Source: Blastocatellia bacterium (GTDB lineage Bacteria > Acidobacteriota > Blastocatellia > Chloracidobacteriales > JADJPF01). From it: a stretch of DNA of 63,045 nucleotides. Location of the stretch: positions 1 to 63,045 of the forward strand of contig JANWYG010000016.1 of assembly GCA_025057015.1 (NCBI GenBank). Direction: 5' to 3'. The position numbers were made by a program, and so were the translations under genes. This document shows, piece by piece, positions 42,874-49,631 of this stretch; the stretch's first letter is position 1; each line of letters begins with the position of its first letter. The notes beneath the pieces are model-generated. The model did no database searches. It saw only the letters and a list, made by a program, of their open reading frames with translations, and had not been told where the DNA came from.

Positions 42874-43645
42874 CAATGATTTACTGAATGTGAGGCCTGT
42901 TTGGGAGAGTACAGCTAGAGACTACTATGCTTTCATTTCTGAACCAGATTCGTATGTCAAGCAGATAGAGTGGCCAGTGATCACGGCAATGATGCCAGCA
43001 GCTAGGAAAGTGCTTGACTTAGGTTGTGGCTGTGGACATTACGCTATTTGTTTGACGAAGGCAGGTGCTAAAGTTACGGCACTGGATATTTCCCCTGCAA
43101 TGTTGGCTATTGCTCGTTCTGAAGCTGCGAAAGATGGTTTGGAGATAGATTTCAGAGAGTTTGATATCCGTAAGAAACTACCTTTTGACGATGCTACCTT
43201 CGATCTGGTGTTAAGCACTACAGTGCTACACTATATAGAGCAACTGTTGCCGTTGTTTACTGAAATAGCAAGAGTGATGATCAAGGGTGGTCGTCTGTTG
43301 CTAAGCGTGCTACATCCTATTAGTACGTCGTTGTTTCCGGTCTTAGAGCAAGACTTTTTGCAAAACGATTCCTGGAATATGAAATACTTCGACAGTAGGT
43401 GCAGGCATTTATTCGCTCCTTGGTCACAGCAAGTACCTGGCAATGCTTGTGCACCGCCTCCGATTAAGTGCTACCATCATACTTTGGAGGATTACTTTTC
43501 GGCGATATTTGCTGCTGGATTTCAACCTGTCGAAGTGCGTGAGCCTCGTCCACAGCCTGTATTAGAGTCTATGAATCCTGCCAGGTTTGTTTACAGCAGC
43601 TCACAGCCGCTTTTCTTGATTATAGCTGCAGAAAAGAAGTTTTAA
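42866..43645 (+). CDS. Class I SAM-dependent methyltransferase
   Basis: 259 residues. SAM-binding motif I is VLDLGCGCGHYAI, followed by VTALDISPAMLAIAR (motif II) and FDLVLSTTVLHYIE. The C-terminal half has HPISTS and HHTLEDYFSAIFAAGF, as in small-molecule methyltransferases of the UbiE-like/type 11 group. The substrate is unknown. An eight-base overlap with the Zur-like gene means they are co-translated and so probably under the same control. A zinc-starvation role is a guess. Confidence 0.85.
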   Translation: MSSNDLLNVRPVWESTARDYYAFISEPDSYVKQIEWPVITAMMPAARKVLDLGCGCGHYAICLTKAGAKVTALDISPAMLAIARSEAAKDGLEIDFREFDIRKKLPFDDATFDLVLSTTVLHYIEQLLPLFTEIARVMIKGGRLLLSVLHPISTSLFPVLEQDFLQNDSWNMKYFDSRCRHLFAPWSQQVPGNACAPPPIKCYHHTLEDYFSAIFAAGFQPVEVREPRPQPVLESMNPARFVYSSSQPLFLIIAAEKKF

Positions 43646-44406
43646 TTTTTGCGCGATAGCCGCAGTTTTAGTGTCCATCTGACAGGCTGCAGACCGTGCC
43701 AAAGAGTTTCTACTTGCTCTTTGAAGGTGACTACAGGATCAGAGCCGTGTTTTTTGATGTAGCATTGAACTGCTGACCAAGTGCGTATGTAGCCTAAGAA
43801 GTGCTCTACGTCCCAGCTGGCTTCCATGACAAATTCCGGTGCAGGTAGTTCCTCAAACGGTAGAGGAATGTCAGCGTATTCTCTTTCGAGTAATCGTCTC
43901 TGCGGTGGCCAGTACTCTTCAAGTTTGTGATAAAACTCGGTTGTTAGCAAATCTATCTGTGGTGATACTTGTAGCAGGTTGTAGCACCAGACGGCAAATA
44001 TACCACCAGGTGCAAGCACGCGTTCTGCTTCTTTGTGAAAAGAGCCATGCTCTAGCCAGTGGTAAGCTTGGGCAACGGTAATGAGATCAACGCTGGAGTC
44101 TACTATCGAGTATTTTGTGCCGTCTAGTAAATGAAGTTCTCCAGAGCTAGCATTGGATACACAGTAGGTGATTCGGGGATGACGCAGAGCTTGTTCCAAC
44201 TGATGAACGGATATGTCAGTAGCTATGACTTTCTCGAACCTATCTGCTAGAGGCAGTGCTGCTTGGCCATTGCCTGTAGCTACATCCCAGGCAAGCGAGT
44301 GTTTAGAGCAAAGGGAAGTTAGATAATCAAATAGCTTTGTTGGGTATGTTGGACGGTAGGTGCAATAAAGTTCAGCTGATTGCGAGAAATAGTCGCTATA
44401 TACCAT
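43642..44406 (-). CDS. Class I SAM-dependent methyltransferase (type 11)
   Basis: 254 residues. Opens YFSQSAELYCTYRPTYP, a signature of this group. Motif I is WDVATGNGQAALPLA, followed by VIATDISVHQLEQA and DLITVAQAYHWLEH, and RVLAPGGIFAVW. The overall pattern matches proteins often annotated as trans-aconitate-type or generic methyltransferases; the substrate is unknown. It is unrelated in detail to the preceding methyltransferase, with which its 3' end overlaps by four bases tail to tail. Confidence 0.85.
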   Translation of the reverse strand: MVYSDYFSQSAELYCTYRPTYPTKLFDYLTSLCSKHSLAWDVATGNGQAALPLADRFEKVIATDISVHQLEQALRHPRITYCVSNASSGELHLLDGTKYSIVDSSVDLITVAQAYHWLEHGSFHKEAERVLAPGGIFAVWCYNLLQVSPQIDLLTTEFYHKLEEYWPPQRRLLEREYADIPLPFEELPAPEFVMEASWDVEHFLGYIRTWSAVQCYIKKHGSDPVVTFKEQVETLWHGLQPVRWTLKLRLSRKN

Positions 44407-44505: not shown

Positions 44506-46815
44506 ATGGAAAAAGGTAGACTGGAAGAGCTTAGAAACGGACTATATTCTACGACTTTTCTCATCGGAAGTTGGAAAAGGAAGAAGGCGTTGGCTCGCTT
44601 GGCAGAAGCTATAGCGGATGTCGATGCTGCTATGCTGCTGGCTGAGGCTATGCAGAAGTCTAGTGACGGATCGATAAAGGCAGGAGCGAAAGAGGCGCTT
44701 TTGCGTCTCAAGGAGCAGAAGACGATAGACCAGCTTTGTGCTCTTTGGGAAAAGAACCGTGCTGAATCGATAGCTCAGCTAATACGTGAAGCGGGTTGGG
44801 TAGCAAGCACGCCGTTGGATTTACAGGTGCTCACTGCCTTGAAAGCGCGAAGAACCGACCTGTTTAGCTCTCCATCAAGGGAAGTATTAAAAGCGTTGTT
44901 TACGTTGCTGTCCGATGTAGATACCGAAATAGCTTCTGAGGCACGCAGGATGCTTGTATCATTGAGGGATGCTCAGGCCCAGCAAATTTTGCTGGAGCAG
45001 CTACTGAGTGATGATCACAAAGAATTATCGAGCATAGTGCGCGAGGCCGGCTATGCTCCTAGCGATAACGGTCAGAAATCTCTCGTATATTTTCTCACCG
45101 AGCAATGGGATCTATTGGAAAAGCACGATCCTGAGCATAGCTATCTCAGAGCTGCATATGGCAAGGCTGATAAGGCTCTAAAAAGCCGTATAGATGCAGT
45201 AGCTGAACGTAGCGGTAAGAAAATACGCTTGCCTCAACAAAGCCAGAAATTAGAACAGCTTGATGATGGCAAACAGAAGGTTAGTAGTAAGCTTACAGCT
45301 GCGGCAGCGGTTACTACTGGTGCTGTACAACCTGCCGCAGCAGCTGCGGTACGTAGAGAACAACGGTTGCTGGAGTTGTCTGAGAAGGATTGGGCTAAGG
45401 TGCTGGAATTGCTTGAGCAGAGCAATCAACGCTTGGGTATATGGCAGCTTGCGCATGACGCGCCTGCGCGCTGGAGCGTGCAAATACTAAACCTGATGAA
45501 AAGGTTGAATTGGAAGCCACGTAGCGAAGAGAAGGCTCAGTATGAAGAGTTGCTTGCACTGGCCGAAAGATGCAACAAAAATGATTTTGAAGCTGTAGCT
45601 ACTCAGGGCATAAAGTTAGAAGGTCATACGGATATGATCAACTGCTTGACTGTGATAGCTAGAGATCTGGTAGCTACAGGTAGTGCTGACTCCACGGTGA
45701 GGCTTTGGAGTATTTCCGAGGCCAAGGAAGTTGCAAAGCTCGAAGGGCATACTGGAGCTATCAACTGTATAGCATACAGCGAGTCCGAAAAGGTCTTGGC
45801 ATCAGGTGGTAGCGACGGTACTGTGAGACTTTGGCGGCTGCCTGAGGGTGAGCTTCTAGGGACGCTGAAGGGACATTCTGATGAAGTTAGCTGTCTTGCT
45901 TTGAGCCCTGACGGCCGGTTGCTTGCAAGCGGTAGCTTAGATAACAGTATAAGGCTTTGGGTGCTGCCTGAAGGACGGGAACTCAAGGAGATAAAGCAGC
46001 ATCAGGGCTCGATTTGGGCGCTTGCCTTTAGTCCTGACGGTCGGTTACTTGCCAGCGGTGGCGGCTTAAATGATCACTGCATCAAGCTTTGGTCAGTTCC
46101 TGACTGCTCGTCAGTCAAAACTCTGGAGGGACACAAAGGCTTGGTGCGTGCTGTTATCTTTTCAAGCGACGCTAAGATGCTACTTTCAGGTAGCAGTGAT
46201 AACTCTATAAAGCTGTGGGAGGTAGCTTCTGGCACAGAGCAAAAGTCTTTCAAGGCACACAAGGGCCTCGTGCACAGTCTCTCCTTCCTGCCTAAGGAAA
46301 GGCTTCTTAGCGCAAGTGTAGACAATACGGCGAGAGTATGGAGTTTGGCTGATGGTAAAGAGCTAAGAAGGATGGATAAGCATAAAGGCAGGATTACTTC
46401 AGTGGCTATAGAACCAACCGCTAAGGCGCTGGCAAGTGCTAGTTGGGATAATACCCTGAAGATTTGGGATCTGGAAAGTGGAGCTGAAATCAGAACTTTA
46501 AATGGGCATACGAACTGGGTGACGGCGGTAGCTCTCAGTCCCGATGCAGAAACGCTGGTAAGTGGAAGCCGTGATAACACGCTACGACTGTGGAAAATGC
46601 GCCCAATACTACTTGTCGGACTTTCTGCAAGCCATGCTACTGACAATGACCTTGCATGGATTCAGAATGCCCTCAGAGATAAGTCTCTGTCAGAAGCTGA
46701 GCAGCGAGTGTATGCCTTCGTGGAGGCTTTGATACGTTGGAAGGCAGTGATAAAAGGTAAGCAAATGCCCAGAACCGTAGACTTAGGCGAATTGAGCATA
46801 CTTCTACCTGAATGA
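44506..46815 (+). CDS. HEAT-like and eight-repeat WD40 protein
   Basis: 769 residues, no signal peptide, so cytoplasmic. Residues 1-230 are short alpha-helical hairpins of HEAT/armadillo type (AKEALLRLKEQKTIDQLCALWEKN-like units). An Ala/Gln-rich linker follows (about 245-285), then a helical stretch. About residues 370-710 hold eight WD40 units, each with a GH-type start and a closing W (LWSI, LWRL, LWVL, LWSV, LWEV, VWSL, IWDL, LWKM). A helical tail of about 60 residues follows. It is a scaffold with no enzyme motif. Its stop overlaps the start of the exported propeller protein (ATGA), so the pair is translated together. Confidence 0.9.
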   Translation: MEKGRLEELRNGLYSTTFLIGSWKRKKALARLAEAIADVDAAMLLAEAMQKSSDGSIKAGAKEALLRLKEQKTIDQLCALWEKNRAESIAQLIREAGWVASTPLDLQVLTALKARRTDLFSSPSREVLKALFTLLSDVDTEIASEARRMLVSLRDAQAQQILLEQLLSDDHKELSSIVREAGYAPSDNGQKSLVYFLTEQWDLLEKHDPEHSYLRAAYGKADKALKSRIDAVAERSGKKIRLPQQSQKLEQLDDGKQKVSSKLTAAAAVTTGAVQPAAAAAVRREQRLLELSEKDWAKVLELLEQSNQRLGIWQLAHDAPARWSVQILNLMKRLNWKPRSEEKAQYEELLALAERCNKNDFEAVATQGIKLEGHTDMINCLTVIARDLVATGSADSTVRLWSISEAKEVAKLEGHTGAINCIAYSESEKVLASGGSDGTVRLWRLPEGELLGTLKGHSDEVSCLALSPDGRLLASGSLDNSIRLWVLPEGRELKEIKQHQGSIWALAFSPDGRLLASGGGLNDHCIKLWSVPDCSSVKTLEGHKGLVRAVIFSSDAKMLLSGSSDNSIKLWEVASGTEQKSFKAHKGLVHSLSFLPKERLLSASVDNTARVWSLADGKELRRMDKHKGRITSVAIEPTAKALASASWDNTLKIWDLESGAEIRTLNGHTNWVTAVALSPDAETLVSGSRDNTLRLWKMRPILLVGLSASHATDNDLAWIQNALRDKSLSEAEQRVYAFVEALIRWKAVIKGKQMPRTVDLGELSILLPE

Positions 46816-49157
46816 AGAGCTTCCTATTGCTACTGCTTGCTTGCGGTGTAGCTGCTGCTCAAGGATTTTATAGATTAACTTCTGAGCAGGGACTTGCTTC
46901 AAATAGTGTCTATTCTATCGTGCGGGATAGATACGGGCTTGTATGGATAGGAACAGACGATGGACTGAGCCTTTATGATGGCAAGGAGTTCACTTCGTAC
47001 GAGCACGTCTACGGCGAGCAGTACACACTTTCGTCAAGTCATATAAGAGTAGTATATGACGATAGAAGCGGTACAATCTGGGCCGGAACCGAACGTAACG
47101 GCCTGAATCGTTTTGACCGGGTAAGCAAGAGATTCTTTAGTTATCAGAAGAAACAGAGGCATGCCGGTAGTATCAGCTCCGATCTCGTCCGAGCGATCTA
47201 TCAAACGAGCGATGGCACACTCTGGATAGGAACTGTTGGCGGTGGAGTAAATCGGTTTGATAGGCACAAAGGTAGATTTGCTGCATACTACTTCATCGAT
47301 CCTAAGACCACGCCCGGCAAGATAGCAAACACTGTAAATTGTCTACTAGAAGATAACTCTGCGCGGCTGTGGATAGGAACAGCTACGGGGCTGTTCCTCT
47401 ACAATAAAGATGAAGATAGAGTGCTTCCTGTCACTGCTGGAGAACAGGTAGCCATTTTGTCGATGCAACTCGATCCCAACGGGCAACTTTGGTTGGGATT
47501 GGCAGGTGCAGGACTGATGAAGTTTGATCCTGATAGTCGTGCCTTTAGTAAACTAAATTCTCTCGGAAATGAGGATATATCGACTACTACATTTACTGCT
47601 CTCTATTTTGCTGCGGATAAGAGGTGGTACGCTACGGCTGATTGCAAGCTGTATATGCAGGTGGGAAGTACGGTTCAAAAGTATGATTTGTCCAAATCCT
47701 CAGCTGATACTATAAGGTGTATCTATGGAGATTCTGAGGGCAGAGTGTGGATAGGAACTGACTGCGGTGTGGTTGTGTATGACCCATATAGGATGCCTTT
47801 TACGCCGCTGCGAGGAGATACTCAGATTGAGCTAAAGAAAGTACGAGCAATACTTGAGGATAGTAACAAAAGGCTTTGGATAGGTACTATGGACGGACAG
47901 CTTGCTTGCTATAGCGAGAGCAACCGTCGATGGGAAGCTCGGTCACTGCCAGTAAGTACAATCTATGCTTTGCTTGAGGACTCTAATGGCGATATCTGGG
48001 TTGGAACCAATTTGGGGGCTTACGTGTTGGATGCCCGTTCGGGAGCAGTTAAGCAGAAGCTGGATGTTTATGCAGGTGAAACAGTGCCTGTTTGGGCTAT
48101 AGCTGAGACGGCTGAAGGTATATGGCTGGGTAGTAACGGCCGAGGGATAGCAGTCTATAATGCTGGTGCTCTCAAGTGGGTTGTATACGATCCAACGAAG
48201 AAGGGGACTCTGTCAAGTAATAACGTAACCTGTATTTATAAAGACAGATCTAATACGATCTGGATAGGTACAGCTGATGGTGGACTGAACAAGTATGATC
48301 CGGCGACGGATACTTTCAAGTCTTATCGCTATGACGCTAGCGGATATTCTCTTTCTAGCGATAGCATCTACTGCATTCTGGAAGATAGTCGAGGTCGTTT
48401 TTGGATTGGAACTTATGGCGATGGACTGAACTTGTTTGATCCGGGAGCCGAAACCTCTGTAGTTTATACTACTCAAGATGGATTGCCTTCAAACACCGTA
48501 GTAGCTCTGGCTGAAGATGCTGCTGGATTTATATGGGCAGCTACTTTGCGTGGCCTAGTTAGGATTGATCCGGTAAGGCGCATCTTCAGCACTTACGATG
48601 CGAAAGATGGATTGCAAAACGATAGGTTCAATATAGGTGCAGTATACAAGACTGCTGATGGTGAGCTGTTGTTTGGTGGAGTTGATGGATATAACCGATT
48701 CGATCCGAAACAAATACCTGCTCGTCCTCTTCCCTCGGTAGTAATCAAAGATGTAGTAGTAGTAAATTCCTACGAAAAGTCGAGGGCACTTCTTGCTCAA
48801 GTGTTTGGCAAGGCACAAGATTTGGTAGTGCTATCTTATTGGGAAAACAGCGTAGCGGTTGAGTTTATCGCAGTTGACTATACTCGCCCAGACAAAGTTA
48901 CTTATGCCTACATGTTGGAAGGAGTAGATACTGATTGGAAGTATACCAAAAACAGATATCTCAGTTATGGAGTGCTTGACGGAGGAAAGTACCTGCTGCG
49001 TATAAGGGCTGCTGGTGCTGATGGTGTATGGGGGAATAGTGTTGAGATTCGATTCAGAGTTACTGCTCCTCCTTGGAAGACATGGTGGGCTTATTGCCTT
49101 TATGTAGCTTTGTTTGTGCTTGCAGTGCGAGCTTTTAAACGTCGCTTGTCCAGTTGA
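46812..49157 (+). CDS. Exported Reg_prop/Y_Y_Y sensor-type protein without a kinase domain
   Basis: 781 residues. A signal peptide (LLLLLACGVAAAQ) leads to about a dozen Reg_prop units with the recurrent (I/L)W(I/V)GT pattern (VWIGTDDGL, LWIGTVGGG, VWIGTDCGV, IWIGTADGG, FWIGTYGDG), forming one or two large propellers. A Y_Y_Y domain follows (about 655-750, YMLEGVDTDWKY), then one membrane span (WWAYCLYVALFVLAVRAF) and only about six residues (KRRLSS). In hybrid two-component sensors a histidine kinase follows at this point; here the chain stops and no kinase remnant lies downstream. It is coupled to the WD40 gene before it. Confidence 0.9.
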   Translation: MKSFLLLLLACGVAAAQGFYRLTSEQGLASNSVYSIVRDRYGLVWIGTDDGLSLYDGKEFTSYEHVYGEQYTLSSSHIRVVYDDRSGTIWAGTERNGLNRFDRVSKRFFSYQKKQRHAGSISSDLVRAIYQTSDGTLWIGTVGGGVNRFDRHKGRFAAYYFIDPKTTPGKIANTVNCLLEDNSARLWIGTATGLFLYNKDEDRVLPVTAGEQVAILSMQLDPNGQLWLGLAGAGLMKFDPDSRAFSKLNSLGNEDISTTTFTALYFAADKRWYATADCKLYMQVGSTVQKYDLSKSSADTIRCIYGDSEGRVWIGTDCGVVVYDPYRMPFTPLRGDTQIELKKVRAILEDSNKRLWIGTMDGQLACYSESNRRWEARSLPVSTIYALLEDSNGDIWVGTNLGAYVLDARSGAVKQKLDVYAGETVPVWAIAETAEGIWLGSNGRGIAVYNAGALKWVVYDPTKKGTLSSNNVTCIYKDRSNTIWIGTADGGLNKYDPATDTFKSYRYDASGYSLSSDSIYCILEDSRGRFWIGTYGDGLNLFDPGAETSVVYTTQDGLPSNTVVALAEDAAGFIWAATLRGLVRIDPVRRIFSTYDAKDGLQNDRFNIGAVYKTADGELLFGGVDGYNRFDPKQIPARPLPSVVIKDVVVVNSYEKSRALLAQVFGKAQDLVVLSYWENSVAVEFIAVDYTRPDKVTYAYMLEGVDTDWKYTKNRYLSYGVLDGGKYLLRIRAAGADGVWGNSVEIRFRVTAPPWKTWWAYCLYVALFVLAVRAFKRRLSS

Positions 49158-49160
49158 GGT

Positions 49161-49631
49161 TTATCGGAAAGATTTCGACATTTTTGTGGTGACAGCGTCG
49201 TAGGTGGGTTTTTCTGCTGCCGGATAAGAGATCTCAAAGGTATAAATTATGTTCTTTTTGCAAAAGGTCTTGCGATAGAAAACCTGATCGTCTTCTATGC
49301 CCGAAATGACGAAGAAATTTTGTCTGAGTAGCTTGTAAGTAACACCTTTACGTGATTTTAGATCTCTGTTGTATAGCTGAGTGAGAGATTCTCCCAGTAC
49401 ATCGTAGCCTGCATAGACTATGGCTTTGGATTTTCCATCAGGCGAGAGGAACGTTTGGCCGTCACCGTTGTCTGACTCACCTTGTGGTATCAACAAGTTG
49501 GCTGGATATTCTATGCTGTAACCGAAACGGTTGTTGTAATAGATTCTGTAGTCATTACTTTGAGCATGAGCTTCTACGGCATAGAGACTGGCTGCTATCA
49601 ACAGCAATGCGAGCTTGCTTTTGGTCTTCAT
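49161..49631 (-). CDS. Small secreted protein, function unknown
   Basis: 156 residues with a clear signal peptide (LALLLIAASLYAVEAHA). The mature part begins with YRIYYNNRFGYSIEYPANLLIPQGE, a segment seen in many small secreted proteins with a PsbP-like flavour, followed by a mixed alpha/beta domain ending TKMSKSF. No catalytic motif. It is separated from the TonB-receptor gene upstream by a strong hairpin and meets the propeller gene tail to tail three bases away. Confidence 0.75.
   Translation of the reverse strand: MKTKSKLALLLIAASLYAVEAHAQSNDYRIYYNNRFGYSIEYPANLLIPQGESDNGDGQTFLSPDGKSKAIVYAGYDVLGESLTQLYNRDLKSRKGVTYKLLRQNFFVISGIEDDQVFYRKTFCKKNIIYTFEISYPAAEKPTYDAVTTKMSKSFR

Follow-up and report, generated by a model that had tools for sequence, protein, structure and literature searches.

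A kinase-less Reg_prop/Y_Y_Y sensor gene overlapping a HEAT-WD40 gene in an acidobacterium of the class Blastocatellia

Results

Organization of the Locus

The window, which comprises a whole contig stretch of 63,045 nucleotides from a Blastocatellia bacterium (genome G000), harbors two co-oriented genes between a divergent methyltransferase gene and a convergent gene for a small exported protein. The features of the region are as follows.

43642..44406, minus strand: divergent methyltransferase gene upstream of gene 1, 46.5% identical to the neighbor of the G001 gene 1 ortholog
44506..46815, plus strand: gene 1 (P0001), cytoplasmic HEAT-WD40 protein, 769 aa
44569..45213, plus strand: HEAT-like helical solenoid, gene 1 residues ~22-236 (HEAT_2 match; helix pairs in the model)
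45382..45594, plus strand: conserved helical middle domain, gene 1 residues ~293-363, common to family members without WD40 (alignment, model)
45610..46596, plus strand: eight-bladed WD40 propeller, gene 1 residues ~369-697 (WD40 match; Foldseek)
46597..46812, plus strand: C-terminal helices plus a short hairpin; family ending VDLGELSILLPE (alignment, model)
46812..46815, plus strand: ATGA, in which the stop of gene 1 and the start of gene 2 overlap (sequence)
46812..49157, plus strand: gene 2 (P0002), exported protein of the Reg_prop/Y_Y_Y sensor type, 781 aa, with no output domain
46812..46862, plus strand: predicted signal peptide, gene 2 residues 1-17, MKSFLLLLLACGVAAAQ (hydropathy, sequence)
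46872..48713, plus strand: two Reg_prop propellers, gene 2 residues ~21-634 (~12 W-[IVAL]-G-T blade motifs)
48876..49061, plus strand: Y_Y_Y domain, gene 2 residues 689-750 (Pfam)
49080..49136, plus strand: single C-terminal membrane span, gene 2 residues ~757-775 (hydropathy peak at 757), with a basic tail of six residues behind it
49161..49631, minus strand: small exported protein, convergent with gene 2 and closing the operon, starting 3 bp past the gene 2 stop

The first-pass annotation had described two open reading frames with the ATG of gene 2 placed inside the stop of gene 1, forming a compact co-oriented operon that ends at a convergent gene, and this layout was confirmed, with no enzyme encoded between the two genes. 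The protein encoded by the convergent gene had no match in Pfam or NCBIfam, and no Ser/Thr kinase domain was detected anywhere on the contig. Given the ATGA overlap, genes 1 and 2 are likely co-expressed, presumably via translational coupling, which does not in itself demonstrate a joint function.

Gene 1 Encodes a HEAT-WD40 Protein

Profile searches on the gene 1 product revealed a HEAT_2 match over residues 1-365 (E 6.7e-6; 26.7 bits, just under the curated cut-off of 27.7) and eight stretches of WD40 (Pfam, E 2.4e-86), and hydropathy analysis exhibited neither a signal peptide nor a membrane span. These observations agree with its earlier description as a scaffold-type cytoplasmic protein. 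An AlphaFold2 model built from six sequences (mean pLDDT 81.6) placed a low-confidence linker between the solenoid (22-236) and the helical domain (293-363). Within the middle domain, the family alignment exhibited five invariant residues (W296, W336, P338, L349, and C356), and the ending of gene 1 corresponds to "GEFDIEIEG" in its relatives. In Foldseek searches WD40 propellers dominated, the gene 1 propeller aligning with the eight-bladed Tako8 at a TM-score of 0.94 by target length, and nothing informative was retrieved on the HEAT or middle domain.

Gene 2 Encodes a Sensor without an Output Domain

The gene 2 product is composed of Reg_prop repeats (Pfam, E 1e-65) and a Y_Y_Y domain (E 5.9e-11), and its exported region matched the periplasmic domain of BT4663 (PDB 4a2l/4a2m) with an E-value of 3.7e-93 in phmmer. 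No HisKA, HATPase, REC, GGDEF, SpoIIE, or Pkinase domain was detected by Pfam. The C-terminus reads ...AVRAFKRRLSS before the stop, so that the protein ends about six residues past its membrane span, as the first-pass annotation had noted; kinase-bearing relatives have their span at the same point. The frame is open over its full length, retaining the blade motifs, the Y_Y_Y domain, and the span with no frameshift. Reading the three frames 3' of the stop, together with tblastn using kinase-bearing relatives, revealed no kinase remnant past the span. A single-sequence structure prediction of gene 2 reached a mean pLDDT of 48 and was left unused.

Relatives and Origin of Gene 2

No kinase-less ortholog of gene 2 turned up among the best matches when 58 relatives and 396 genomes from the phylum were searched, a result that applies to the top candidates scored per genome, so that non-orthologous kinase-less proteins could escape it. 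Most partial matches sit in open frames of ~900-2000 aa. Shorter frames in four genomes (G012, G013, G356, and G405) were considered as kinase-less orthologs and rejected, being either fragments at contig edges or accompanied by output sequence. The outputs of the sampled relatives are a Ser/Thr kinase, SpoIIE, or HisKA/HATPase modules, the last frequently combined with receivers. In a tree of the C-terminal half, the branch leading to gene 2 is long (0.79), lies among receptors that carry outputs, and has no resolved sister. The closest paralogs of gene 2 in G000 are ~29-33% identical. The lack of kinase-less orthologs, the output-bearing relatives, and the position in the tree together suggest that gene 2 likely arose in this lineage by loss of the output module from a kinase-bearing ancestor. 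As to whether this was a recent truncation, a possibility that the first-pass annotation had itself raised, the best-matching sampled sensors of the phylum do carry output modules, but neither the downstream region, which has no remnant, nor the long branch lends support to a recent event.

Of the shorter frames opened, only one in G395 (L189:1-2166) lacks a kinase, and it is not an ortholog of gene 2. In this protein Reg_prop, Y_Y_Y, a span, PAS, and a coiled coil follow one another, the frame stops short of a kinase domain, and the next gene is RmuC-like. Other output types were also observed among the receptors: two in G000 (L001 and L005, contig C20) carry a SpoIIE phosphatase output domain, and in G003 a fusion protein (L012:1-3924) joins a Reg_prop/Y_Y_Y receptor to a Ser/Thr protein kinase domain of the eukaryotic type in place of the histidine kinase.

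Conservation of the Gene Pair

Gene 1 orthologs were found in G001, G002, and G003, all from the taxonomic family of the window genome. The proteins of G002 (42% identical) and G003 (43%) are full-length, and that of G001 is interrupted by the contig end within the WD40 region. In G002, the family genome in which the 3' side is fully readable, the ortholog is preceded by a divergent TPR-like gene and followed by a convergent phosphofructokinase-like gene, with no Reg_prop neighbor. G003, from the same genus as G002, has the same upstream neighbor, and its contig continues for 265 bp past the ortholog, a stretch in which no Reg_prop gene starts. The G001 ortholog conserves the methyltransferase of the window upstream, which indicates that the two contexts are orthologous; its contig stops before a counterpart of gene 2 could be reached. 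G000 is the sole sampled genome of its genus. The first-pass annotation had proposed a coupled system, with conserved adjacency as its test, and the contexts in G002 and in the readable part of G003 largely contradict such adjacency; a pair kept together by selection is not supported. At the level of sequence comparison, a new scaffold-only transmembrane system is thus not supported by conservation.

Distribution and Neighborhoods of the Gene 1 Family

Outside the WD40 region, gene 1 shares with proteins of other phyla the HEAT array, an FYFLTEQWDxYE-like motif, the middle domain, and the C-terminal ending. A WD40-free protein at L071 matched gene 1 residues 43-356 (E 1.6e-31), which, together with the invariant columns, places both the HEAT array and the middle domain of the family in gene 1. 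Within the phylum, a profile of the non-WD40 part of the family (A1) detected members in 3 of 396 genomes; in Cyanobacteria the count was 11 of 388. The L071 protein used as a query against 145 cyanobacteria matched its own genome alone. Judged from these searches, the family is patchy.

In eight genomes from three phyla (Cyanobacteria, Desulfobacterota, and Acidobacteriota, the last by one distant acidobacterium), a family member adjoins an AAA+ ATPase (loci L060, L064/L170, L069, L071, L160/L161, L167, L168, and L169). We take this ATPase to be Ycf46-like, Pfam giving AAA alone. A GrpE-like gene is present at every one of these loci except L060, and six of them also harbor an Hsp70-like gene within the stretch read; Pfam searches on representatives confirmed AAA, GrpE, and Hsp70. 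Six cyanobacteria, and the acidobacterial family to which the window belongs, have the family gene on its own, among varied neighbors. Gene 1 is flanked by the methyltransferase and gene 2, and AAA/GrpE/Hsp70 genes are missing from its neighborhood, as they are in the six cyanobacteria and G002. G000 encodes two full-length Ycf46-like AAA proteins (36-37% identical) on other contigs, with no chaperone partners beside them. The best Hsp70 match in G000 is 31% identical and of DnaK-like size, and no partner resembling the cyanobacterial Hsp70-like proteins was found there; gene 1 may therefore fall outside the chaperone link. A defense-system reading was discarded, the PADLOC matches being weak and of WD40 or AAA type alone.

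Reg_prop Receptors beside Ser/Thr Kinase Genes

G000 encodes 12 other Reg_prop/Y_Y_Y receptors, four of which directly adjoin a same-strand Ser/Thr kinase gene (L171:4853-11696, L177:5489-12674, L179:2570-9263, and L180:4823-11055). The kinases carry WD40, PEGA-TPR, TPR, or DUF4388-DnaJ-TPR extensions, and at L171 a kinase-WD40 fusion lies upstream of a Reg_prop hybrid kinase. With ~55 Ser/Thr kinases among an estimated ~2540 genes (58 Pkinase matches were recorded in the genome), the binomial probability of at least 4 of 12 receptors adjoining kinases is ~0.0003-0.001; the arrangement is commoner than expected, a result that is suggestive only because the count was made after the first case had been noticed. 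Because each of the four receptors retains a histidine kinase domain of its own, none can serve directly as a model for gene 2. These neighborhoods nonetheless lend weak, indirect support to the possibility that gene 2 uses a separate kinase in trans.

Discussion

Comparison with Known Systems

The two propellers, the Y_Y_Y domain, and the position of the span make gene 2 similar to hybrid two-component receptors of the BT4663 type (4a2l/4a2m), from which it differs in having no kinase, receiver, or DNA-binding domain and in ending right past the span. PorZ, known from the literature, is likewise kinase-less and similar in architecture, but has a C-terminal secretion domain and is located at the cell surface (PMC5121618). 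Gene 2 matched the PorZ family (NF052228) in NCBIfam with an E-value of 7.5e-40, at 137.1 bits and below the curated cut-off of 260, and resembles it in its two Reg_prop-type propellers and the absence of a kinase. Unlike PorZ, however, its C-terminus consists of Y_Y_Y and an inner-membrane-type span, with no T9SS secretion domain.

Gene 1, in turn, has the HEAT array, the FYFLTEQWDxYE-like motif, the middle domain, the ending, and (where present) the WD40 propeller in common with the HEAT(-WD40) proteins of the Ycf46-like AAA/GrpE-like/Hsp70-like sets, although it lies outside such a set and the AAA genes of its genome are on other contigs. A survey reported that WD40 genes adjoin Ser/Thr kinases in other bacteria (PMC5587647); gene 1 resembles such proteins in that its propeller is of scaffold type and its genome encodes many Ser/Thr kinases, but has a kinase domain neither within itself nor in an adjoining gene. 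In the literature searched on Reg_prop/Y_Y_Y and Ycf46 we found no description of the gene pair, nor of the AAA/HEAT/GrpE/Hsp70 set.

Possible Roles of the Two Proteins

We consider the chances about even that this locus combines two known kinds of protein, a kinase-less sensor of the BT4663 type and a stand-alone HEAT-WD40 adaptor, in a pairing that is specific to the lineage and probably co-expressed. Under this reading, the two propellers and the Y_Y_Y spacer of gene 2 would lie in the periplasm, tethered to the inner membrane by the single span, and would most likely bind a periplasmic ligand, probably a glycan. Gene 2 would then act solely via other proteins, either by Y_Y_Y pairing with full-length Reg_prop receptors, as a putative co-receptor or decoy, or as a tethered binding protein, and gene 1 would probably bridge clients to machinery of the AAA/GrpE/Hsp70 type. 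Two points weigh against a merely local pairing: a true functional pair would equally exhibit the overlap and the tight packing, and the comparison within the closest lineage rests on G001, whose contig ends before the place of gene 2.

Were the two genes instead a two-part signaling unit, gene 2 would sense a periplasmic ligand and its tail or span would contact gene 1, which would recruit a Ser/Thr or histidine kinase encoded elsewhere. The ATGA overlap, the four kinase-adjoining receptors of G000 with one kinase-WD40 fusion among their neighbors, the receptor-kinase fusion of G003, and the WD40 genes near Ser/Thr kinases in other bacteria (PMC5587647) are consistent with such a unit; nevertheless we think it unlikely, as the pairing is absent in G002 and was not seen in G003, the six-residue tail is very short for adaptor binding, the four kinase-linked receptors have histidine kinase domains of their own, and the contig of the window encodes no Ser/Thr kinase. 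A longer chain would constitute a split transmembrane receptor: the kinase-less sensor would signal via the HEAT-WD40 adaptor, its translationally coupled neighbor, and the adaptor would pass the signal to either a Ser/Thr kinase or a Ycf46-like AAA+ machine from another locus. We regard such a receptor as decidedly improbable. Gene 2 could also work alone, as a co-receptor or decoy whose mixed Y_Y_Y dimers damp or tune full-length Reg_prop kinases, gene 1 being an unrelated passenger of the operon. The intact sensor and span with an absent output, the 12 potential partners in G000, and the existence of a second kinase-less receptor in G395 are in line with this, as is the fact that BT4663 and its relatives are dimeric, the Y_Y_Y domain of BT4663 being described as a spacer engaged in dimerization (PMC5121618); yet the low identity of the closest paralogs makes mixed dimers uncertain, and we hold this explanation to be doubtful. 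That gene 2 is a decaying, now functionless remainder of a hybrid kinase, its output half having disappeared through a deletion or a rearrangement, would fit the lack of a kinase-less ortholog and the output modules of the near relatives tested, but it appears very unlikely in view of the full-length frame with its ~12 blade motifs, Y_Y_Y, and span, and of the clean downstream region, where a recent loss would more likely have left kinase remnants.

If the pair does work as a unit, it would represent a receptor without a catalytic domain of its own, with a logic comparable to that of kinase-borrowing receptors. Independently of this, gene 2 shows that a Reg_prop/Y_Y_Y sensor need not carry an output domain, the G395 example retaining PAS and coiled coil only, and in the acidobacterium of the window such sensors appear to adjoin Ser/Thr kinase genes above chance. 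Additionally, gene 1 draws attention to a little-described HEAT(-WD40) family tied to a Ycf46-like AAA/GrpE-like/Hsp70-like gene set in three phyla. In one genome (G581, L160:7437-15801 and L161:3870-9887), several tandem HEAT-WD40 copies or fragments of this family surround a single AAA/GrpE/Hsp70 cluster, which suggests local expansion.
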